In this document: positions 5,898 through 37,440 of the stretch, in pieces
How the letters are laid out: every line of letters begins with the position of its first letter
Numbering within the stretch: position 1 is the stretch's first letter
From: Streptomyces lydicus
GTDB taxonomy: Bacteria; Actinomycetota; Actinomycetes; Streptomycetales; Streptomycetaceae
NCBI RefSeq assembly: GCF_000717345.1
Contig: NZ_JNZA01000013.1
Coordinates: 124,001-188,000, forward strand
DNA length: 64,000 bases
Direction of reading: 5' to 3'
Notes under the pieces: generated by a model
Told to the model about the DNA's origin: nothing
Databases searched by the model: none
Seen by the model: only the letters and a program-made list of their open reading frames with translations
Position numbers and translations under genes: made by a program

Positions 5898-7070
5898 CGA
5901 CCTCCACCAGGGGTACCGCCCACGGCACAAGGGGGCTCCCCGCCGTACTCGTCCTGGAGGACGGCCGCACCTTTCACGGCCGTGCCTACGGGGCCGTGGG
6001 GGAGACCTTCGGCGAAGCGGTGTTCTCCACCGGCATGACCGGCTACCAGGAGACGCTGACCGACCCCTCGTACCACCGCCAGGTCGTCGTCATGACCGCC
6101 CCGCACATCGGCAACACCGGTGTGAACGACGAGGACCCCGAGTCGCAGCGGATCTGGGTCGCCGGCTACGTCGTCCGCGACCCCGCCCGCGTCCCGTCCA
6201 ACTGGCGCTCGGTGCGCTCCCTCGACGAGGAGCTGGTCGCCCAGGGCGTCGTCGGCATCAGCGGCGTGGACACCCGGGCGCTCACCCGCCACCTGCGCGA
6301 GCGCGGTGCCATGCGGGTCGGCATCTTCTCCGGCGACGCGATGCCCGACGCGGGCACCATGCTCGCCAAGGTGCGCCAGGCCCCGGAGATGCAGGGCTCC
6401 GACCTGTCCGCCCAGGTCGCCACCAAGGAGGCGTACGTCGTCCCGGCGATCGGCGAGAAGAAGTTCACCGTCGCCGCGATCGACCTGGGCATCAAGGGCA
6501 TGACCCCGCACCGTATGGCCGAGCGCGGCATCGAGGTGCACGTCCTGCCCGCGACGGCCACCGTCGAGGACGTCTACGCGGTCGAGCCGGACGGCGTGTT
6601 CTTCTCCAACGGACCGGGCGACCCGGCCACCGCCGACCACCCCGTCTCGGTCATGCGCGGCGTGCTGGAGCGCAGGACGCCGCTGTTCGGCATCTGCTTC
6701 GGCAACCAGATCCTGGGCCGCGCGCTGGGCTTCGGCACGTACAAGCTCAAGTACGGCCACCGCGGCATCAACCAGCCGGTGCAGGACCGTACGACCGGCA
6801 AGGTCGAGGTCACCGCGCACAACCACGGATTCGCCGTCGACGCCCCGCTCGACAAGGTTTCCGACACCCCCTTCGGCCGCGCCGAGGTCTCCCACGTCTG
6901 CCTCAATGACAACGTGGTGGAGGGCCTCCAGCTGCTCGACCAGCCGGCCTTCAGCGTCCAGTACCACCCCGAGGCCGCCGCGGGTCCGCACGACGCCGCG
7001 TACCTCTTCGACCGCTTCGTCGCGCTCATGGGCGACGACAACCAGCACAGCGTTTCCCTGGAGGGCCAGC

Positions 7071-7078
<8 letters not shown>
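5894..7078 (+). CDS. carA: Carbamoyl-phosphate synthase small (glutaminase) subunit
   Basis: It hydrolyses glutamine and channels ammonia to CarB. The 394 residues comprise the N-terminal CPSase_sm domain ([19 protein letters not shown]) and a class I GATase domain. The GATase nucleophile Cys268 lies in GICFGNQ, with AHNHGFAVD and the catalytic His/Glu in [10 protein letters not shown]. The ATG at 5894 overlaps the upstream stop as ATGA; the frame stays open further upstream, but that extension covers the previous gene. The 3' end overlaps carB by 8 bp. Confidence 0.97.
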
Positions 7079-10379
<3,301 letters not shown>

Positions 10380-27446: not shown

Positions 27447-29159
<1,713 letters not shown>

Positions 29160-29261: not shown

Positions 29262-29377
29262 GTTGCGTCCGGCGCCCGAAACGCAACGAACCTCCGGCCG
29301 TCGCACCCGTGCGCAACGATCTGTCGCGGTTGCGCAAGGAACCTGCATTACGGCAGCTCAGCGGCGCCCCGTACAGT
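29262..29377 (+). promoter_or_regulatory. Permease promoter with GCGCAA boxes
   Basis: The core is TTACGG (29348-29353), an 18-bp spacer and TACAGT (29372-29377), inside CCCCGTACAGTCA. Upstream lie GCGCAA at 29311 and, within the palindrome TTGCGCAA, at 29332, 21 bp apart (two helical turns). Related GTTGCGT and ACGCAAC half-sites lie at 29264 and 29281. The second box starts 35 bp before CCCCGTAC, exactly as at the 34.8-kb promoter. They are candidate sites for the neighbouring Lrp/AsnC protein. The 130 bp from here to the permease start is untranslated leader. Confidence 0.65.
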
Positions 29378-29508
29378 CATGCGCTAGTACGTGGAGTGGC
29401 GGGGACCGTCAGCTCAGCGGTCTCCTGCAGCGGTGGCTTTCGCCTGCCCGCGCACAGATCGCTGTTGGTCGCCGCCATCTGACCGGCAGCGATTAAGGAG
29501 CCACCCGA

Positions 29509-30981
29509 GTGTTGGAGCACGGCGCAGCCCCACCCGCAGGGGACCGTGACACCAGGCAACCCGCCCCCGGAGGTCTCGGCACCCGGCTGATGCGGCGCAA
29601 GCCGGTCGAGCGGCTGGTGTCCGAGGGCGGCAAGGGCGAGGGGGGCGAACTCCGCCGCTCGATGGGTATGTGGCAGCTGACCATGATCAGCATCGGTGCC
29701 ACCCTGGGCACCGGCATCTTCGTGGTCCTCGGCGAGGCCGTCCCGGACGCCGGGCCCGCGGTCATCATCTCCTTCGTCATCGCCGGTATCACCGCGCTGT
29801 TCTCGGCGCTGTCGTACGCGGAGCTGGCCGGCACCATGCCGGTCTCCGGTTCCTCGTACTCCTACGCCTACGCCACCCTCGGCGAGCTGGTCGCCTGGGT
29901 CTGCGGCTGGTGCCTGATCCTGGAGTACGGCGTCTCGGTCGCGGCCGTCGCGGTGGGCTGGGGCCAGTACCTCAACGAGCTGCTCGACGGCGTCTTCGGC
30001 TTCACCATCCCGGACGCGCTGTCCGCGCCGCCCGGTGACGGCGGCTACTTCAACCTGCCGGCGCTGCTCGTGGTGCTGCTCGCGATGGCGTTCCTGCTGG
30101 GCGGGGCCAAGGAGAGCGCCCGGGCCAACACCATCATGGTGATGGTCAAGATCGTTGCGCTGCTGCTGTTCTGCGGTGTCGCCTTCCAGGGCGTGAAGTC
30201 CGGCAACTACGCCAACTTCATGCCGATGGGCATGGCGGGCGTCAGCGCCGCGGGCGCGACCCTGTTCTTCTCGTACATCGGCTTCGACGCCGCCTCCACC
30301 GCCGGCGAGGAGGCCAAGAACCCGCAGCGCGACCTGCCGCGCGCGATCATGCTCTCGCTGGTGATCGTCACCGCCCTGTACTGCCTGGTCGCGGCGATCG
30401 CGGTGGGCGCGATGCCGTGGCAGAAGTTCAAGGGCTCGGAGGCCGCGCTGGCCGGGATCATGAAGGCGGTCACCGGCCAGAGCTGGTGGGCCGTGCTGCT
30501 CGCCTTCGGCGCGGTCGTCGCGATCGCCAGCGTCGTGCTGACCGTGCTCTACGGCCAGACCCGCATCCTCTTCGCGATGTCCCGGGACGGCCTGGTGCCC
30601 AAGACGTTCTCCAAGGTGCACGCCAAGACCGGGGTGCCGCGGGTGAACACCGTGATCGTCTCGCTGTTCTGCGGTGTGCTCGCCGCCGCGGTGCCGCTGG
30701 GCGAGCTGGCCGACGCCACCAGCATCGGCACGCTCTTCGCCTTCGCGCTGGTCAACGTCGCCGTGATCGTGCTGCGCCGCACCCGCCCGGAGATGAAGCG
30801 CACCTTCCGCACGCCGCTCTCCCCGCTCTTCCCGGCGATCGGCTTCCTGCTGTGCCTCTACATGATGGGCAGCCTGGGCGCGGTCACCTGGGTGGTCTTC
30901 GGTGTCTGGATGGTCGTGGGCCTTGTGGTCTACTTCGGTTACGGCTTGCGCCGCTCCCGATTGGCCACGTCAGAGAAGTGA
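29509..30981 (+). CDS. APC-superfamily amino acid permease (cationic type)
   Basis: A 490-residue inner-membrane carrier with about 12 helices after a 45-residue cytoplasmic N-terminus. The first helix carries the APC signature SIGATLGTGIFVVLGEAVPDAGPAV. FFSYIGFDAASTAGEEAKNPQRDLPRAI and GQTRILFAMSRDGLVPKTFSKVH are typical of the cationic amino acid transporter (CAT, SLC7-like) branch. GTG 29509 has AAGGAG eleven bases upstream. An Lrp/AsnC gene follows 10 bp after the stop, and the promoter matches that of the amidase/monooxygenase operon, suggesting uptake of the amino acid they degrade. Confidence 0.93.
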   Translation: MLEHGAAPPAGDRDTRQPAPGGLGTRLMRRKPVERLVSEGGKGEGGELRRSMGMWQLTMISIGATLGTGIFVVLGEAVPDAGPAVIISFVIAGITALFSALSYAELAGTMPVSGSSYSYAYATLGELVAWVCGWCLILEYGVSVAAVAVGWGQYLNELLDGVFGFTIPDALSAPPGDGGYFNLPALLVVLLAMAFLLGGAKESARANTIMVMVKIVALLLFCGVAFQGVKSGNYANFMPMGMAGVSAAGATLFFSYIGFDAASTAGEEAKNPQRDLPRAIMLSLVIVTALYCLVAAIAVGAMPWQKFKGSEAALAGIMKAVTGQSWWAVLLAFGAVVAIASVVLTVLYGQTRILFAMSRDGLVPKTFSKVHAKTGVPRVNTVIVSLFCGVLAAAVPLGELADATSIGTLFAFALVNVAVIVLRRTRPEMKRTFRTPLSPLFPAIGFLLCLYMMGSLGAVTWVVFGVWMVVGLVVYFGYGLRRSRLATSEK

Positions 30982-30991
30982 TCCACCCGCA

Positions 30992-31447
30992 GTGCGACTG
31001 AACGATCTCGACGAACGCATCGTCCACGCCCTCGCCGAGGACGCCCGCCGCAGCTACGCCGACATCGGCCAGGAGGTCGGACTGTCCGCACCGGCCGTCA
31101 AGCGCCGGGTGGACCGGCTGCGGGCCGACGGCGCGATCACCGGCTTCACCGTACGGGTGGACCCGGCCGCGCTGGGCTGGGAGACCGAGGGATTCATCGA
31201 GATCTACTGCCGCAGCAACACCTCGCCCGAGGCGATCCACCGCGGCCTGTCGCGCTACCCGGAAGTGGCGTCCGCCTCCACCGTCACCGGTGAGGCGGAC
31301 GCCATCGTCCAGGTCTTCGCCTCCGACATGCGCCACTTCGAGCGCGTCCTGGAGCGCATCGCCGGCGAGCCGTTCGTCGAGCGCACCAAGTCGGTCCTGG
31401 TGCTCTCCCCGCTGCTGCGCCGCTTCAGCTCGGGCGCACCCGGCTGA
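30992..31447 (+). CDS. Lrp/AsnC-family transcriptional regulator
   Basis: The protein has 151 residues. The N-terminal winged helix (RLNDLDERIVHALAEDARRSYADIGQEVGLSAPAVKRRVDRLRADGAI) is followed by an alpha-beta RAM domain (about 65-145, GFIEIYCRSNTSPEAI...GEADAIVQVFASD) that assembles octamers and binds amino acids. GTG 30992 starts 10 bp after the permease gene, so it is co-transcribed. Lrp-type proteins usually control a linked transporter or catabolic gene in response to their amino acid. The GCGCAA boxes upstream of the permease and of the amidase gene are plausible targets. Confidence 0.95.
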   Translation: MRLNDLDERIVHALAEDARRSYADIGQEVGLSAPAVKRRVDRLRADGAITGFTVRVDPAALGWETEGFIEIYCRSNTSPEAIHRGLSRYPEVASASTVTGEADAIVQVFASDMRHFERVLERIAGEPFVERTKSVLVLSPLLRRFSSGAPG

Positions 31448-31503
31448 GCCGAGGGGCCCGGCCGGGCGCGGACCGGCCCGCCGCGTGCCGCGGCCCCGCA
31501 CGG

Positions 31504-32943
31504 TCAGCCGCCGGTCGGTGCGGACCTCGCGCCGGTACGGAGACCGGCCACCACCGCGCCGCCCACCACCAGGACCGCCCCCGCGGCGATCCGGTAGCCC
31601 AGCGCCGTGGCGTCGGTGAACGCGGCCGCCGTCCCGGCGCCGTGACCGGTGCCGGCGGCGAACCGCACGGACAGGACCGTGCCGACGACGGCGATGCCCA
31701 GCGCCGCGCCCAGCTCCCGCGCCGCGCCCTGGAGGCCGGAGCCCATCCCCGAGCGACGGGCCGGCACGGACGCCACGATCGCGTGCGACAGCGTCGGCAT
31801 CGCCAGCCCCGCGCCGACCGACATCACCAGCAGGAACGCCAGGTAGAGGGCGTAAGGGGTGCCCGCGTCGGCGGTGGACAGCAGCAGCAGTCCGGCCGCG
31901 ATCAGCACCAGCCCGCCGCCGACCGCCCTGGCCTCGCCGGCCCGCTGCGCCCAGCGCATCCCGTACGTGGTGACCGCCATCATCCCGAGCGCCAGCGGCA
32001 CGATCGCGCAGCCGGTCTGCAGCGGGGAGTAGCCCTTCACGTACTGGAGGAACTGTGCGTTGACGTAGAAGAGCGAGAACATTCCGAAGAACGTCAGGGC
32101 GATGCCGACGGCGCCGGCACGCAGCCGCGGTATCCGGAACAGCCGCGGGTCCAGCACCGGGTGCGCGGCCCGCAGCCCGTGCCGTACGAACACCGCGAAC
32201 AGCACCACGGCCAGTGCGAAGGCGCCGGTCACCGCCGCGGAGGTCCAGCCCAGCCCGGGGCCCTCGATGATGCCGAAGAGCAGCGCCGTCGCGCCGAGGA
32301 CCAGCAGTGCCGAGCCGGGCAGGTCGAGCACCGCGGTCTGCCGGGGGACCCGGGGCGCCACCGCGGCGACCCAGGCCAGCAGGGCCAGGCCGAGCGGTAC
32401 GTAGGCGCCGAACAGCGCCTGCCAGGGCAGGTACTGGAGGATCAGCGCGCCGCCGGCGTTGCCCGCCATGCCGCCGAGGCCGGCCGCCGTGCTCCAGGCG
32501 GCGACGGCCCCGGCCGTACGGCCCGGCGGCGCGGCGTGCAGCAGGACGGACATGGTCGCCGGGACCAGCAGCGCCGCGCCCGCCCCCGAGACGGCGCGGC
32601 CGGCCAGCAGGACCGGAAGACCGTTCGCCAGCGCGCTGAGCAGGGTGCCCGCCGCGAACACGCCGAGCCCGGTCAGCAGGACGCCCTTGCGGCCGAACCG
32701 GTCGCCGAGCGCGCCGGCCGGGATCAGCAGCCCGGCGAAGACCAGCACGTAGGTGTCGACGATCCACAGCAACTGGGCGGGCGACGGGTGCAGCCCGCTC
32801 GCCGCGATCTTGGGTATCGCCAGGTTCATCGCAGCCACCAGCGACTGCGCGACCAGCACACAGGCGCACATCGCGACCGTCACCGAGCGCCGGCGTCCCG
32901 AAGCGGCGCGGACCGGCGGGGGAGAAGTCATCGTCAAGGTCAT
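31504..32943 (-). CDS. MFS drug exporter, DHA2 (14-helix) family
   Basis: The 479 residues have about 14 hydrophobic helices. Motif A reads GDRFGRKGVLLTG after helix 2. Helix 5 carries GAGAALLVPATMSVLLHAAPPGRTAGAVAAW, the antiporter motif region of EmrB/QacA pumps. It is a likely proton-coupled efflux pump for a toxic small molecule. ATG 32943 has no clear Shine-Dalgarno; a second ATG four codons in is possible. The gene is divergent from a LysR regulator with only 54 bp between starts, so that regulator probably controls it. Confidence 0.92.
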   Translation of the reverse strand: MTLTMTSPPPVRAASGRRRSVTVAMCACVLVAQSLVAAMNLAIPKIAASGLHPSPAQLLWIVDTYVLVFAGLLIPAGALGDRFGRKGVLLTGLGVFAAGTLLSALANGLPVLLAGRAVSGAGAALLVPATMSVLLHAAPPGRTAGAVAAWSTAAGLGGMAGNAGGALILQYLPWQALFGAYVPLGLALLAWVAAVAPRVPRQTAVLDLPGSALLVLGATALLFGIIEGPGLGWTSAAVTGAFALAVVLFAVFVRHGLRAAHPVLDPRLFRIPRLRAGAVGIALTFFGMFSLFYVNAQFLQYVKGYSPLQTGCAIVPLALGMMAVTTYGMRWAQRAGEARAVGGGLVLIAAGLLLLSTADAGTPYALYLAFLLVMSVGAGLAMPTLSHAIVASVPARRSGMGSGLQGAARELGAALGIAVVGTVLSVRFAAGTGHGAGTAAAFTDATALGYRIAAGAVLVVGGAVVAGLRTGARSAPTGG

Positions 32944-32997
32944 GGCCGGGACGTTAGAGTCGCCGTGGATTAACCTCAAATGCAAGGTATGCACTCC

Positions 32998-33936
32998 ATG
33001 ATTGCGCGAAACGCAAACATCGACCTCAACCTGCTGACGGCGCTGGACGCCCTGCTGGAAGAGGAGAGCGTGACCGCGGCCGCCGACCGCCTCGGGCTCT
33101 CCGGACCGGCCATGAGCCGCGCCCTCGGGCGGATCCGCCGCACCATCGGCGACCCGGTGCTCGTCCGCGCGGGCCGCCGCATGGTGCCCACCCCGCGCGC
33201 CCTGGAGATCAGGGCCGAGGTACGCGGCCTGGTGGAGGCGGCGCACCGGCTGCTGGCCCCCTCCGCGCCCGCCGACCCGGCCCAGCTGGCCCGGGTCTTC
33301 ACCCTCAGCGCACACGACCTCTTCGTCAGCGCCGTCGGCCCGCGGCTGGTCGCGCTCGCCGCCGAGGAGGCGCCGCAGGTCGTGCTGCGCTTCCTCGGCG
33401 AGAGCCACGTGGACGTGCCGGTGCTGCGGGACGGGGCGGCGGACCTGGAGCTCGGCATCATCGGCCCCCGCGAGCCGGAGATCCGTACGGAGCACCTGTT
33501 CAACGACCGCGGGGTCGCGGTGGTGCGCGCCGGCCATCCGCTCACCACCGCGCGGCTGACGGCGCGGCGCTACGCCGACGCCCCACACATCAACTTCACC
33601 CGCCGCGGCCGGCTGACCGGCCCCATCGACGCCGCGCTCGCCGAACTCGGCCTGCGCCGCAGGGTGATCGCCACCGTCCCCACCTTCGCCGCGTCGCTGC
33701 TGATGGTCCGCGACAGCGACGCGGTCGGCCTGGCCAACGAGGTGACCGCGGCGTCGACGGTCCGCGGGCTGGGGCTGTGCACCCTGCCCATCCCGTTCGA
33801 CCTGCCGCCGATGGAGGTGGCGATGGCCTGGCACCCGCGTCAGGACGCCGATCCGGGCCACCGCTGGCTGCGCGGGCTCGTACGGCGGGTCGTCATGGCG
33901 GCGGTCAGTGCCGAATCCGCCAGGGAACAACCGTGA
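32998..33936 (+). CDS. LysR-family transcriptional regulator
   Basis: The 312 residues have an N-terminal winged helix IDLNLLTALDALLEEESVTAAADRLGLSGPAMSRALGRIRRTIGDPVLVR and a periplasmic-binding-protein-like effector domain (about 95-300). Start 32998 is chosen because AAGG lies nine bases upstream and the family normally has about ten residues before DLNLL; an ATG at 32980 would add six. TGCA-aggta-TGCA between the divergent starts may be its binding site. It probably senses a substrate of the divergent exporter. The 3' end overlaps the convergent secreted-protein gene by 32 bp. Confidence 0.92.
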   Translation: MIARNANIDLNLLTALDALLEEESVTAAADRLGLSGPAMSRALGRIRRTIGDPVLVRAGRRMVPTPRALEIRAEVRGLVEAAHRLLAPSAPADPAQLARVFTLSAHDLFVSAVGPRLVALAAEEAPQVVLRFLGESHVDVPVLRDGAADLELGIIGPREPEIRTEHLFNDRGVAVVRAGHPLTTARLTARRYADAPHINFTRRGRLTGPIDAALAELGLRRRVIATVPTFAASLLMVRDSDAVGLANEVTAASTVRGLGLCTLPIPFDLPPMEVAMAWHPRQDADPGHRWLRGLVRRVVMAAVSAESAREQP

Positions 33937-34504
33937 AATCGCCGCTTTCGAGGGTCTCGAAGGGCGCCGACGCCACACACGGCGGCAGGTCCTTCGTCGC
34001 CCACGGGCCGTCGGTGCCGACCCAGCTGTAGCCGAGCCGGTCGTGCCGGCCGTCGTCGCGGACGCTGAAGCCGACCCGCTTGCCCTTCAGGCCGGGCCGG
34101 TCGGTCCGGGTGACGATGCCGGAGGCGGTGGCGATCTTCCCGCCGGTCATCAGGCAGTCGATCCGGCCCTCGGCGAAACCGCTGTTCCCGTTGGGGAAGA
34201 CATGGCTGAAGCGGAAGGTGCCCCTGGCGTCCAGCGGGCCCTGGTCCTTGCGGAAGTGCGCGTCGAACGCGAAGTGGATGTTGTCGCCGGCCGAGCGGTA
34301 GAGCTTGGCGGCACCGGTCAGCCGCGGGTCCTTGGCGGAGACGGCGGCGGTGGGGCGTCCGGACCGCGCGCCGGGCGCGCCGTCGGAGGCGGCCGCGGAG
34401 CCGGCGGTCGCGGCGGCGGCCAGCGCCACCGCGCCGGCCGTGGCGAGCGCCACCCGGGTGCGGGTACCGCGGCGTCGGGCGGAAAGAGCGGAAAGAGGGG
34501 GCAT
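33905..34504 (-). CDS. Secreted Streptomyces protein (often annotated repetin-like)
   Basis: The protein has 199 residues with no enzyme motif that I recognise. A basic N-terminus with RRRGTRTR and a long hydrophobic Ala-rich stretch (about 16-40) form a signal peptide, probably cleaved after SAAA. The mature part contains NIHFAFDAHFRKD, GTFRFSHVFPNGNSGFAEGRIDCL, KGKRVGFSVRDDG and ends DFTVVPWRIRH; two cysteines (in DCL and PPC) could form a disulfide. ATG 34504 has AAAGGG six bases upstream. It is convergent with, and overlaps, the LysR gene. Confidence 0.85.
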   Translation of the reverse strand: MPPLSALSARRRGTRTRVALATAGAVALAAAATAGSAAASDGAPGARSGRPTAAVSAKDPRLTGAAKLYRSAGDNIHFAFDAHFRKDQGPLDARGTFRFSHVFPNGNSGFAEGRIDCLMTGGKIATASGIVTRTDRPGLKGKRVGFSVRDDGRHDRLGYSWVGTDGPWATKDLPPCVASAPFETLESGDFTVVPWRIRH

Positions 34505-34740
34505 GACGGCCCTTTCGTCGAGCGTGCTGAAGGAGGTGCGACCGGCCTTTTCCGGACGGCTCCCACGCTCCCGCCGGCCCCCGGCGCGGACGTCGCGCCA
34601 CGGGACGAAACGGCTCCGCCGTACGGCGGAGGGACGACCCCCGGGCCGTACGACCCCGGCCGCACAGGCCGTGCGACCAGGGGCCCGCGACGCCTCGGTG
34701 CGGCCCCCGGCACCCCCGCGCCCACCTGCGCCGACAGGGG

Positions 34741-34841
34741 GCGCAATGAATCGCCGCAGAGGCGCTTGAACGCGCAATGAATCGTCCGTCGGCGCGCAAC
34801 GGTGGCGGCTTGTCCGGAATCGTCACCGCCCCGTACCGTCA
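34741..34841 (+). promoter_or_regulatory. Amidase/monooxygenase promoter with three GCGCAA boxes
   Basis: GCGCAA occurs at 34741, 34772 and 34794; the first two sit in identical 13-mers GCGCAATGAATCG. The promoter core is TTGTCC (34810-34815), an 18-19 bp spacer and TACCGT (34834-34839), inside CCCCGTACCGTCA. The last box starts 35 bp before CCCCGTAC, and the box before it is 22 bp further up. The layout is the same as at the permease promoter at 29.3 kb. The transcript start would be about 30 bp before the amidase ATG. Confidence 0.7.
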
Positions 34842-34878: not shown

Positions 34879-35676
34879 ATGACGTCGCTGCACACCGCCC
34901 TGCTCCAGAGTTCGGGACGGCCCGGCGACGTCGCGCACAATCTGCGGGTGCTCGACGACGCGGCCCGCGCCGCCGCGGCGAACGGCGCCGGACTGCTGGC
35001 CGCGCCCGAGATGTTCCTCACCGGCTACGCCATCGGCGACGACGTCCCCAGGCTCGCCGAGCCCGCCGACGGCGAGTCCGCCGACGCGATCGCCGAGATC
35101 GCCACCCGGCACGGTCTGGCCGTCGCGTACGGCTACCCGGAGCGCGACGGCGAGACGGTCTACAACTCCGTCCAGCTGATCTCTGCCGACGGCACGAGGC
35201 TCGCGAACTACCGCAAGACCCACCTCTTCGGCTGCTTCGAGCGCGACCACTTCACGCCCGGCGACCAGCCCGTCGTCCAGGCCGAGCTGGCCGGCCTCCG
35301 CGTCGGCCTGATGATCTGCTACGACGTGGAGTTCCCGGAGAACGTCCGGGCCCACGCCCTCGCCGGCACCGACCTTCTCCTGGTGCCCACCGCGCAGATG
35401 CACCCGTTCCAGTTCGTCGCGGAATCGCTGGTGCCGGTCCGCGCCTTCGAGAACCAGATGTACGTCGCGTACGTCAACCGCACCGGCCCGGAAGGGGAGT
35501 TCGAGTTCGTCGGGCTCTCCACGCTCGCCGGCCCCGACGGAGTCGCCCGGGCCCGCGCCGGCCGCGGCGAGGAACTGGTGTCCGCCGACGTCGACCCGGC
35601 GTTCCTCGCCGCCTCCCGGGAGAACAACCCCTACCTGCGCGACCGCCGCCCGGGACTGTACGCGTCCCTCGTCTGA
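34879..35676 (+). CDS. Carbon-nitrogen hydrolase (DavA/omega-amidase-like amidase)
   Basis: The 265 residues have the nitrilase-fold catalytic triad Glu (LLAAPEMFLTGY), Lys (NYRKTHLFG) and Cys (LMICYDVEFPE). The length and N-terminus match 5-aminovaleramide amidase (DavA) of Pseudomonas and related amidases. It would hydrolyse the amide released by the monooxygenase encoded 57 bp downstream to a carboxylate plus ammonia. ATG 34879 follows GAGGGG. The pairing with a DavB-like enzyme makes lysine or arginine catabolism the best guess, not proven. Confidence 0.88.
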   Translation: MTSLHTALLQSSGRPGDVAHNLRVLDDAARAAAANGAGLLAAPEMFLTGYAIGDDVPRLAEPADGESADAIAEIATRHGLAVAYGYPERDGETVYNSVQLISADGTRLANYRKTHLFGCFERDHFTPGDQPVVQAELAGLRVGLMICYDVEFPENVRAHALAGTDLLLVPTAQMHPFQFVAESLVPVRAFENQMYVAYVNRTGPEGEFEFVGLSTLAGPDGVARARAGRGEELVSADVDPAFLAASRENNPYLRDRRPGLYASLV

Positions 35677-35733: not shown

Positions 35734-37440
35734 ATGACGTCCACGGTGCCCCCCGCCGTCCCGCACACCGACATGCAGCCGCCGATCACCATGTTCGGCC
35801 CGGACTTCCCGTACGCCTACGACGACTTCCTGGCGCACCCGGCCGGCCTCGGCCAGATACCGGCGACCGAGCACGGCACCGAGGTCGCGATCATCGGCGG
35901 CGGCCTCTCCGGCATCGTCACCGCGTACGAGCTGATGAAGATGGGCCTCAAGCCCGTCGTCTACGAGGCCGACCAGATCGGCGGCCGGCTCCGCACCGTC
36001 GGCTTCGACGGCTGCTCCGCCGCAGCGGACGAGAGCGAGCTCAACTGCGAGCTGGGCGCGATGCGCTTCCCGCCGTCCTCCACGGCGCTGCAGCACTACA
36101 TCGACCTGGTGGGCCTGCAGACCCGGCCGTTCCCCAACCCGCTCGCCGAGACCACGCCCTCGACGGTCGTCGACCTCAAGGGCGAGTCGCACTACGCGAC
36201 CACCGTCGACGACCTGCCGCAGGTCTACCGCGACGTGATGAACGCCTGGAACGCCTGCCTGGAGGAGGGAGCCGACTTCTCCGACATGAACCAGGCCATG
36301 CGCGAGCGCGACGTGCCGCGCATCCGCGAGATCTGGGCGAAGCTCGTCGAGAAGCTCGACAACCAGACCTTCTACGGCTTCCTCTGCGACTCCACGGCCT
36401 TCAAGTCCTTCCGGCACCGCGAGATCTTCGGCCAGGTCGGCTTCGGCACCGGCGGCTGGGACACCGACTTCCCCAACTCCATCCTGGAGATCCTGCGGGT
36501 CGTCTACACCGAGGCCGACGACCACCACCGCGGCATCGTCGGCGGCTCTCAGCAGCTGCCGCTGCGCCTGTGGGAGCGCGCGCCCGAGAAGATCGTCCAC
36601 TGGGCGCAGGGCACCTCGCTGTCGACGCTGCACGACGGCGCCCCGCGCCCGGCGGTGACCCGGCTGCACCGCACCGCCGGCAACCGCGTCACGGTCACCG
36701 ACGCCACCGGCGACATCCGCTCCTACGGTGCGGTCGTCTTCACCGCCCAGTCGTGGATGCTGCTGTCCAAGATCGCCTGCGACGACGAGCTGTTCCCCAT
36801 CGACCACTGGACGGCGATGGAGCGCACCCACTACATGGAGTCGTCCAAGCTGTTCGTGCCCGTGGACCGGCCGTTCTGGCTGGACAAGGACGAGGACACC
36901 GGCCGGGACGTCATGTCGATGACGCTCACGGACCGGATGACCCGCGGCACCTACCTCCTCGACAACGGCCCCGACCGGCCCGCCGTCATCTGCCTCTCGT
37001 ACACGTGGTGCGACGACAGCCTCAAGTGGCTGCCGCTGGACGCCAACGAGCGGATGGAGGTCATGCTCAAGTCGCTGTCGGAGATCTATCCGAAGGTCGA
37101 CATCCGCAAGCACATCATCGGCAACCCGGTCACCGTCTCCTGGGAGAACGAGCCCTACTTCATGGGCGCGTTCAAGGCCAACCTGCCCGGCCACTACCGC
37201 TACCAGCGGCGGCTGTTCACCCACTTCATGCAGGACCGCCTGCCCGAGGACAAGCGCGGCATCTTCCTCGCCGGCGACGACATCTCCTGGACGGCCGGCT
37301 GGGCCGAGGGCGCGGTGCAGACCGCGCTGAACGCGGTGTGGGGCGTGATGCACCACTTCGGCGGCGCCACCGACTCCACCAACCCCGGCCCGGGCGACGT
37401 GTACGACGAGATCGCGCCCGTCGAACTGCCCGAGGACTGA
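35734..37440 (+). CDS. Flavin amino-acid 2-monooxygenase (DavB/IaaM-like amine oxidase)
   Basis: The 568 residues carry the FAD dinucleotide fold EVAIIGGGLSGIVTAYELMKMGLKPVVYEA (about 50-79), the GGRLR motif, ELGAMRFPPSS and C-terminal IFLAGDDISWTAGWAEGAVQTALNAVWG. From memory, long blocks (FGPDFPYAYDDFLAHPAGLG, FGQVGFGTGGWDTDFPNS, HPAGLG) resemble Pseudomonas L-lysine 2-monooxygenase. Such enzymes oxidatively decarboxylate an amino acid to an amide; IaaM does this to tryptophan. It lies directly after the amidase gene and shares its promoter. L-lysine or L-arginine are the likeliest substrates; a plain amino acid oxidase activity is possible. Confidence 0.85.
   Translation: MTSTVPPAVPHTDMQPPITMFGPDFPYAYDDFLAHPAGLGQIPATEHGTEVAIIGGGLSGIVTAYELMKMGLKPVVYEADQIGGRLRTVGFDGCSAAADESELNCELGAMRFPPSSTALQHYIDLVGLQTRPFPNPLAETTPSTVVDLKGESHYATTVDDLPQVYRDVMNAWNACLEEGADFSDMNQAMRERDVPRIREIWAKLVEKLDNQTFYGFLCDSTAFKSFRHREIFGQVGFGTGGWDTDFPNSILEILRVVYTEADDHHRGIVGGSQQLPLRLWERAPEKIVHWAQGTSLSTLHDGAPRPAVTRLHRTAGNRVTVTDATGDIRSYGAVVFTAQSWMLLSKIACDDELFPIDHWTAMERTHYMESSKLFVPVDRPFWLDKDEDTGRDVMSMTLTDRMTRGTYLLDNGPDRPAVICLSYTWCDDSLKWLPLDANERMEVMLKSLSEIYPKVDIRKHIIGNPVTVSWENEPYFMGAFKANLPGHYRYQRRLFTHFMQDRLPEDKRGIFLAGDDISWTAGWAEGAVQTALNAVWGVMHHFGGATDSTNPGPGDVYDEIAPVELPED

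Follow-up and report, generated by a model that had tools for sequence, protein, structure and literature searches.

Proteins of the Lrp/AsnC (feast/famine) family can activate or repress transcription, and the local activators among them act from several phased sites of 13–15 base pairs (bp) near a promoter. Streptomyces are soil bacteria in which lysine and arginine feed antibiotic precursors. In Mycobacterium tuberculosis, we take Rv2324 to be an Lrp/AsnC protein and Rv2323c to be a dimethylargininase of the same type as that of the Streptomyces unit described below. The Rv2324–Rv2323c–rocDE cluster is reported to be up-regulated by arginine, and the annotated regulator gene Rv2324 to rise 6-fold (PMC4569260). 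On the enzyme side, the L-lysine 2-monooxygenase and 5-aminovaleramidase of Pseudomonas (DavB/DavA) form the same enzyme pair as the one considered here, and the marginolactone arginine monooxygenase and 4-guanidinobutyramide hydrolase carry out the same type of reaction on arginine (PMC5082578). Here we describe a locus on a 64,000-nucleotide stretch of Streptomyces lydicus DNA (contig NZ_JNZA01000013.1, positions 124,001–188,000; hereafter the window), in which genes for an amino-acid permease, an Lrp/AsnC regulator (lrp), an amidase, and a monooxygenase stand behind two promoters with three boxes each. It is highly likely that these predicted operators belong to the dedicated local regulator encoded at 30992–31447, which would control both the permease and the amidase/monooxygenase promoters, likely as an activator with a basic amino-acid ligand.

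Box layout of the two promoters

The genes and promoter elements concerned are listed below in window coordinates.

29509–30981, + strand: APC-family amino-acid permease, cationic amino-acid transporter-like (PDB, NCBIfam, and Pfam matches)
30992–31447, + strand: Lrp/AsnC-family regulator (lrp), proposed reader of the boxes (domain matches, orthologue search)
34879–35676, + strand: carbon–nitrogen hydrolase, probable omega-amino-acid amidase with a DavA-like role (Pfam match; substrate predicted)
35734–37440, + strand: flavin adenine dinucleotide (FAD) enzyme, very probably a basic L-amino-acid 2-monooxygenase, relative of PDB 3WE0 (PDB sequence match)
29282–29296, + strand: permease promoter, box 1 (CGCAACGAACCTCCG), 30 bp before box 2
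29312–29326, + strand: permease promoter, box 2 (CGCAACGATCTGTCG)
29333–29347, + strand: permease promoter, box 3 (CGCAAGGAACCTGCA), adjoining the −35 hexamer
29348–29353, + strand: permease promoter, −35 hexamer TTACGG (box 3 + 15; TTACGG in 22 of 40 permease promoters)
29372–29377, + strand: permease promoter, −10 hexamer TACAGT (within the block reported earlier)
34742–34756, + strand: amidase promoter, box 1 (CGCAATGAATCGCCG)
34773–34787, + strand: amidase promoter, box 2 (CGCAATGAATCGTCC)
34795–34809, + strand: amidase promoter, box 3 (CGCAACGGTGGCGGC), adjoining the −35 hexamer
34810–34815, + strand: amidase promoter, −35 hexamer TTGTCC (TTGTCC in 28 of 49 amidase promoters)
34834–34839, + strand: amidase promoter, −10 hexamer TACCGT

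A preliminary description of this DNA reported GCGCAA at 29311 and 29332 in the permease promoter and at 34741, 34772, and 34794 in the amidase promoter. In each case, a block (CCCCGTACAGTCA at 29367 and CCCCGTACCGTCA at 34829) followed 35 bp past the last GCGCAA. The coordinates and the 35-bp distance were confirmed for both promoters. The number of boxes was right for the amidase promoter, where 34741 is indeed a third box, and wrong for the permease promoter, which carries three boxes and not two. The additional box, ACGCAACGAAC with CGCAA at 29282, had been overlooked because its first letter is A and not G. The conserved box core is CGCAAYGA; the leading G is weak, and the box carries a weak dyad, CGCA-N7-TGCG. 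The 15-bp boxes start at 29282, 29312, and 29333 in the permease promoter (30+21 bp) and at 34742, 34773, and 34795 in the amidase promoter (31+22 bp). These spacings are near three and two helical turns (close to multiples of 10.5 bp). In both promoters, the −35 hexamer begins 15 nucleotides (nt) and the −10 hexamer 39 nt after the start of box 3, with a gap of 18 bp between the hexamers.

The shared CCCCGTAC block, which had been counted as an element of the architecture, turned out to be the −10 hexamer with its flank and varied among the relatives. Of the 40 permease promoters, only 3 had TACAGT, compared with 26 with TAGGCT or TAGGGT; TACCGT occurred in 36 of the 49 amidase promoters. The identity of the blocks is therefore not a conserved element; the match holds in the window locus and in two related loci. 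Conservation applies instead to the boxes and to the interval between them and the −35 hexamer.

GCGCAA alone was not enriched in the window (33 observed vs 39.7 expected). The pattern CGCAA-N24..28-CGCAA-N14..19-GCAA had two matches in the 8.18-megabase genome, both at these promoters, and its reversed control also yielded two, which are chance matches. The looser GCGCAA-N14..17-GCGCAA, of the type proposed earlier, was not specific genome-wide, with 4 matches vs 9 for the control.

For the genus, 121 genomes were sampled evenly, using a cut-off of best E ≤ 2e-69 for the Lrp orthologue and E ≤ 1e-150 for the monooxygenase. Each of the two proteins was found in 116 genomes. They occurred together in 115, Lrp alone in one, the monooxygenase alone in one, and neither in four (Fisher p = 2.9e-6). 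In the Lrp-only genome, G073, the start of the monooxygenase was found at the contig end (L190). The one TGA noted in the lrp gene of G010 is the stop codon that closes this gene close to its end, and this copy is no pseudogene. Across 41 loci, comprising the window and 40 relatives, the genes generally follow the order guaB1–permease–lrp–amidase–monooxygenase, with some pieces absent or outside the fetched stretch.

The layout was scored in two sets of loci. The first comprised 57 Streptomyces loci, with the best box triple chosen freely among 36 spacings. Of the 40 permease promoters, 38 had their best triple at 30+21 (exceptions L077 and L192), and of the 49 amidase promoters, 47 had it at 31+22 (exceptions L191 and L201). 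The second comprised 80 loci from named genomes, with 100 spacings allowed; the conserved spacing was obtained for 73 of 75 permease (exceptions L259 and L276) and 69 of 70 amidase promoters (exception L231). Promoter scores were 19–23 of 24, except for 16–18 in L187 and L192 (permease), L191 and L195 (amidase), L259, and L231. The permease promoter of L187 keeps the spacing, while its outer boxes are degenerate. Control regions scored at the level of chance, the best values upstream of lrp (79 regions) and guaB1 (64 regions) being 13–17 of 24. Among 320 random pieces, 314 scored 14–18, one consisting mostly of N scored 5, and the five at 22–23 were traced onto the promoters themselves.

The information content pointed the same way, with 1.53 and 1.60 bits per base within the boxes vs 0.65 and 0.68 between them (permease, 37 sequences, and amidase, 45 sequences, respectively). 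A two-box search with GCAAYGAWY-N19..23-GCAAYGAWY yielded 47 matches in 33 of 61 genomes, compared with one for the reversed control. By position, 46 of the 47 were at these loci; the other, in the window's own genome (C11:97568), lies in an open frame read by eye as ribonuclease HII and was taken as chance. The boxes are thus conserved upstream of the orthologous genes, the point on which the preliminary description had made its reading depend, and the layout is kept genus-wide. These counts also bear on the explanation that the likeness of the two promoters stems from a recent local duplication or from chance and has no function. The −10 blocks do match closely in this species. However, the two promoters differ consistently in spacing (30+21 vs 31+22) and also in their −35 and −10 hexamers, and conservation of each layout in the genus far exceeds the level of the control regions. 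Conservation refutes this explanation, to which we give practically no credence.

Candidate readers of the boxes

The lrp product contains an N-terminal AsnC-type helix-turn-helix (PF13404, 58.6 bits; PF13412, 45.5 bits) and a C-terminal RAM ligand-binding domain (PF01037, 54.5 bits). Its scores were under the curated cut-offs of the NCBIfam equivalogs LysM (70.1 vs 180 bits), AsnC (67.4 vs 227 bits), and Lrp (44.9 vs 233 bits), and it is therefore not one of these named proteins. Its gene starts 10 bp past the boxed permease gene.

The nearest other Lrp of the genus is 53–59% identical and is encoded in the window's genome at G000:C34:35793–36215 (locus L295, 35683–36215). According to model matches at locus L285, this sister Lrp adjoins a dimethylargininase (DDAH) of the M. 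tuberculosis type, followed by an ornithine aminotransferase. Downstream of the sister Lrp lie three boxes of a variant, CGCAG type (CGCAGCGATGCTGCG and similar), the box being a near-perfect 15-bp dyad, and the −35 hexamer again stands 15 nt after box 3. When the spacing was left free and the −35 hexamer assumed at box 3 + 15, 30 of 31 loci (L285–L294, L295, and L313–L332) gave a spacing of 31+21. With the layout fixed, all 31 loci fitted, with scores of 16–21 of 21. Of 620 control pieces drawn at random from these loci, 244 lacked a usable site and 353 reached scores of 2–13; the other 23, at 17–21, may contain the promoters themselves. A pattern for both box types occurred at four places in the window's genome, namely the two promoters, the paralogue promoter, and C6:119996. 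A further match recurred in many genomes (...TTCTTGGCGACCTCGCCGCGCAG..., e.g., G013:C1:2701967–2702034) and looks like a conserved coding stretch.

The best evidence for Lrp as the reader is that two related Lrp–target pairs share the scaffold while the box differs. We conclude that the boxes are the likely operators of two sister Lrp/AsnC regulators of basic amino-acid catabolism, which are probably activators. The Lrp/AsnC amino-acid regulon put forward in the preliminary description is supported by the conservation of the layout, by the co-occurrence of Lrp and the monooxygenase, and by the paralogous Lrp with the same layout, Lrp being the presumed reader. At residue 34, which stands at the start of the recognition helix, the window's Lrp carries Pro, and its presumed boxes are of the CGCAA type. 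Among the paralogue loci, all five with Pro or Ser at the equivalent position have A as base 5 of box 1, compared with 1 of 26 with Thr. The corresponding counts were 1 of 5 vs 0 of 26 for box 2 and 2 of 5 vs 9 of 26 for box 3. Only box 1 tracks residue 34 in this set, which represents few lineages.

By eye, no such boxes were seen ahead of lrp in loci where the permease is missing or far away. A promoter-like hexamer, TCTACT or TGTACT, was found upstream of lrp in all 17 loci without an adjacent permease (with no chance control), in 16 of them as CGTGNT(C/G)TACT. In six loci (L190, L191, L193, L194, L195, and L200), T(C/G)TACT starts 12 nt before the lrp start codon, which suggests a leaderless transcript. 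The same hexamer lies within the end of the permease gene in all 35 loci with an adjacent permease (about 30920–30991 in the window); there, it could be explained by coding constraint. The lrp gene may be transcribed from a separate promoter that lacks boxes, in which case its expression would not depend on them, and co-transcription with the permease may account for part of its expression only. In G012 (L185) and G023 (L188), the amidase has moved more than 1 megabase from lrp with its three boxes kept, one of them weaker in L188.

Within the class, the monooxygenase (E ≤ 1e-150) was found in 64 of 394 genomes. Outside the genus, we compared 20 of the 25 best loci, including 12 of the 14 genomes of one family (f17). 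As far as the contigs allow, the genes of this family run permease–amidase–monooxygenase, and an Lrp of 61–64% identity is convergent to these genes in 10 of 12 loci. CGCAAYGAA boxes lie upstream of both the permease and the amidase. With 26–36 bp allowed (no control of its own), 9 of 11 amidase promoters gave 31 bp as the spacing of their best box pair, the first box of which stood 79–80 nt before the −10 hexamer. It is worth noting that single boxes carry less weight, as 44 of 480 control stretches of 300 bp reached 8 or 9 of 9. In eight loci of further families, the fetched stretch contained no Lrp match, and the upstream regions scored 15–18, the chance level, with the boxes absent.

The boxes could also be read by another, unlinked regulator, for instance, a global regulator of nitrogen or amino-acid metabolism, with Lrp being merely a neighbor. 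In favor of this, the putative promoter of lrp has no boxes, and the layout is kept even where lrp is unlinked. Against this, the layout is confined in the window's genome to these promoters and the paralogous Lrp unit, with C6:119996 as the one further match, a distribution that does not resemble a global regulon. The copy at the paralogous unit immediately follows the gene of the closest Lrp paralogue. In family f17, the boxes accompany Lrp, and the eight loci without an Lrp match have none. An unlinked reader appears decidedly unlikely to us.

Several observations weigh against Lrp as a dedicated reader of the boxes. Autoregulation is usual, albeit not universal, in the Lrp/AsnC family and is not evident here, because lrp may have its own box-free promoter. 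Boxes are absent or degenerate beside a kept lrp in the permease promoters of L077, L187, L192, and L259 and in the amidase promoters of L190, L191, L192, L195, and L231; for some of the box-less genes, the gene start, and hence the scanned stretch, is possibly misplaced. G028, an assembly of 1300 contigs, has a boxed amidase promoter and no detected orthologue of this Lrp. The boxes of family f17 lie at a different distance from the −10 hexamer than those of Streptomyces. Between the two paralogues, the recognition helix hardly differs (SAPAVKRRVDRL / SATAVKRRVDRL), which makes it hard to see what would keep them from cross-talk. Finally, the two layout sets share some species, all of them come from related genomes of one genus, and their counts are not independent.

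If Lrp reads the boxes, a multimer would bind all three helically phased 15-bp operators, probably wrapping the DNA. In the presence of its ligand, a basic amino acid, it would most likely activate transcription; the last operator, box 3, adjoins a poor sigma-70-type −35 hexamer. The importer and a two-step route from the amino acid through the omega-amino amide to the omega-amino acid would be switched on together. The route would run from lysine through 5-aminovaleramide to 5-aminovalerate, or from arginine through 4-guanidinobutyramide to 4-guanidinobutyrate. The sister Lrp would run the dimethylargininase/ornithine-aminotransferase unit through the same layout with the variant box. Alternatively, Lrp could repress from these sites, the amino acid relieving the repression, and box 3 does touch the −35 hexamer. 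Yet in the promoters with the layout, all three boxes are upstream of the −35 hexamer and both −35 hexamers are poor, which is the geometry of an activator. PMC4569260 describes the analogous M. tuberculosis rocDE–Rv2323c cluster as arginine-up-regulated, with the adjoining Rv2324 up 6-fold. Activation is clearly favored because the boxes lie upstream of the −35 hexamer, in constant phase, beside poor −35 hexamers; we regard repression as rather improbable.

Enzymes, permease leader, and intervening genes

The FAD enzyme matched PDB 3WE0 with 791.6 bits over residues 13–565, indicating a full-length FAD amine-oxidase fold. PDB 3WE0 is the L-amino acid oxidase/monooxygenase (L-AAO/MOG) of Pseudomonas sp. 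AIU 813. As described in PMC5832979, its basic substrate is held by Arg102, Trp235, Asp238, Tyr416, and Trp418, and Asp238 binds the cationic side chain. All five residues have identical counterparts in the window enzyme, with the 3WE0 numbering mapped by us (chain minus 20). Around Asp238, GGWDTDF aligned to GGWDSDF. Relative to 3WE0, the window enzyme shows the changes Ala515 → Gly and Cys → Ala, the latter mapped to residue 254. Since these five residues match those of 3WE0, a basic L-amino acid is very probably the substrate. The pocket residues do not separate lysine from arginine. We counted the presence of the enzyme in S. lividans, stated in PMC5082578, as a pointer to lysine. Another is that the sister unit already resembles arginine/ornithine catabolism. 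A pointer to arginine was observed in another family, at locus L180, where a ureohydrolase-like gene (agmatinase/guanidinobutyrase type by eye; minus strand, about 6970–7900) precedes permease–amidase–monooxygenase, pointing to an arginine to 4-guanidinobutyrate route there.

The amidase matched PF00795 with 183.7 bits. Its motifs PEMFLTGY, RKTHLFG, and MICYDVEFPE presumably carry the Glu-Lys-Cys catalytic triad of carbon–nitrogen hydrolases. For the permease, the top PDB match was 5OQT (441 bits), followed by human-type cationic transporters, and the score was over the TIGR00909 cut-off of NCBIfam. Paralogues of the monooxygenase with 61–64% identity are present in 7 of 121 genomes. The second copies at L197, L198, and L199 (62–63% identical) have no box triple above chance in the 400 bp upstream; our guess is that such copies belong to polyketide pathways as biosynthetic arginine monooxygenases.

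The 5′ leader of the permease messenger RNA (mRNA), at 29378–29508, contains one further element:

29401–29425, + strand: conserved leader hairpin, loop (U/A/C)GCUC (leader alignment, folds)

In the alignment of 36 of the 38 leaders (without L070 and L077), a highly conserved UACGUGGAGUGGCG-like stretch lies within the first tens of nt after the expected start. It is followed by the hairpin and, at the end, by GGCAGCGAU-AAGGAGCC. The hairpin set comprised 28 distinct hairpins from 35 of the 38 loci; L077 (no anchor), L094, and L104 (no loop pattern) were left out. Each of the ten stem positions formed a standard pair in 19–27 of the 28 hairpins, and positions 7 and 8 varied among GC, GU, UA, AU, and CG; most of the hairpins retain the stem across such base changes. 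The loop sequence was GCUC at 34 of 35 loci, and all 35 had GGAGC or GGAGU as the ribosome-binding site. The loop could pair with this site, a pairing that lacks covariation support because neither partner varies. RNAalifold on the MAFFT alignment of the leaders returned 7 pairs only, which we think resulted from alignment slippage; the hairpin was taken instead from single folds and paired columns.

Searched with a sequence-only model of the leader, 41 of 61 genomes gave a single match each. Forty of these were on the lrp contig beside lrp, and the match in G050 was weak (E = 5e-4). Rfam offered no identity for the leader, yielding only weak microRNA-type or frameshift-type matches under the gathering scores. 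An upstream open reading frame was ruled out by eye, as 1- and 2-base indels occur within it. The leader is a candidate cis-regulatory RNA. A more far-reaching reading can be composed from these parts. The sister Lrps would split basic amino-acid catabolism through one scaffold (31+21 bp, 15 nt to the −35 hexamer), using a change of box base 5 (CGCAA to CGCAG) together with a change of residue 34 (Pro/Ser vs Thr), and the importer would also be under a new RNA leader, the GCUC loop of which pairs with its own ribosome-binding site GAG(C/U). We hold this combination to be doubtful, and its probability was lowered because the counts for boxes 2 and 3 do not track residue 34.

Three genes lie between the two halves of the module:

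31504–32943, − strand: MFS efflux protein of the intervening unit, outside the conserved module (Pfam/NCBIfam; loci of 2 of 40 relatives)
32980–33936, + strand: LysR-family regulator of the intervening unit, outside the conserved module (Pfam/NCBIfam; loci of 2 of 40 relatives)
33905–34504, − strand: 199-amino-acid protein between the two halves (loci of 10 of 40 relatives)

The exporter/LysR unit had been described as lodged between two halves, and the comparison bears this out. Exporter and LysR gene are present together in the loci of only 2 of 40 relatives (L065 and L073), and the lrp-to-amidase distance ranges from 155 bp to 9.5 kilobases in 35 loci. The unit of the window is an insert, because it is rare in the relatives and the halves lie close elsewhere. 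The 199-amino-acid protein had no family match in Pfam and NCBIfam. Its relatives, at 50–67% identity in 10 of the 40 loci (L065–L104), are commoner than the neighboring exporter/LysR pair. A short element at 28994–29159, between guaB1 and the permease promoter, has an 18-bp perfect terminal inverted repeat (CTAGGGCGTGTCTTTCGG ... CCGAAAGACACGCCCTAG). It overlaps the guaB1 stop codon and resembles a miniature inverted-repeat element.

Comparison with known systems

With these findings, an Lrp present in 116 of the 121 sampled Streptomyces genomes can be assigned a likely function, together with an operator sequence and a regulon of two promoters, and basic amino acids are predicted as the inducer class. 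The natural paralogue/operator pairs on one scaffold form a system for studying site recognition by Lrp proteins and promoter geometry. A promoter responding to basic amino acids could serve as a Streptomyces sensor. Nothing on this Lrp or its boxes appeared among the matches listed from the PMC full-text literature, judged by titles and abstract openings and with subscription papers mostly outside the scope.

As in local activators of the Lrp/AsnC family, the window's Lrp combines the HTH_AsnC and RAM domains, and its gene stands beside catabolic genes. Unlike the known cases, three sites at near-invariant spacing (30–31 and 21–22 bp) are kept here at a fixed distance from the −35 hexamer, at two promoters and again at a paralogue, and the putative promoter of lrp is unboxed. 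The M. tuberculosis cluster resembles the Streptomyces lrp2–DDAH–rocD unit, i.e., the paralogue and not the window's Lrp, a likeness drawn by gene content only. Local regulation by Lrp/AsnC proteins is already known, and the locus adds no categorically new mechanism; what is unusual is the rigid, duplicated promoter layout.

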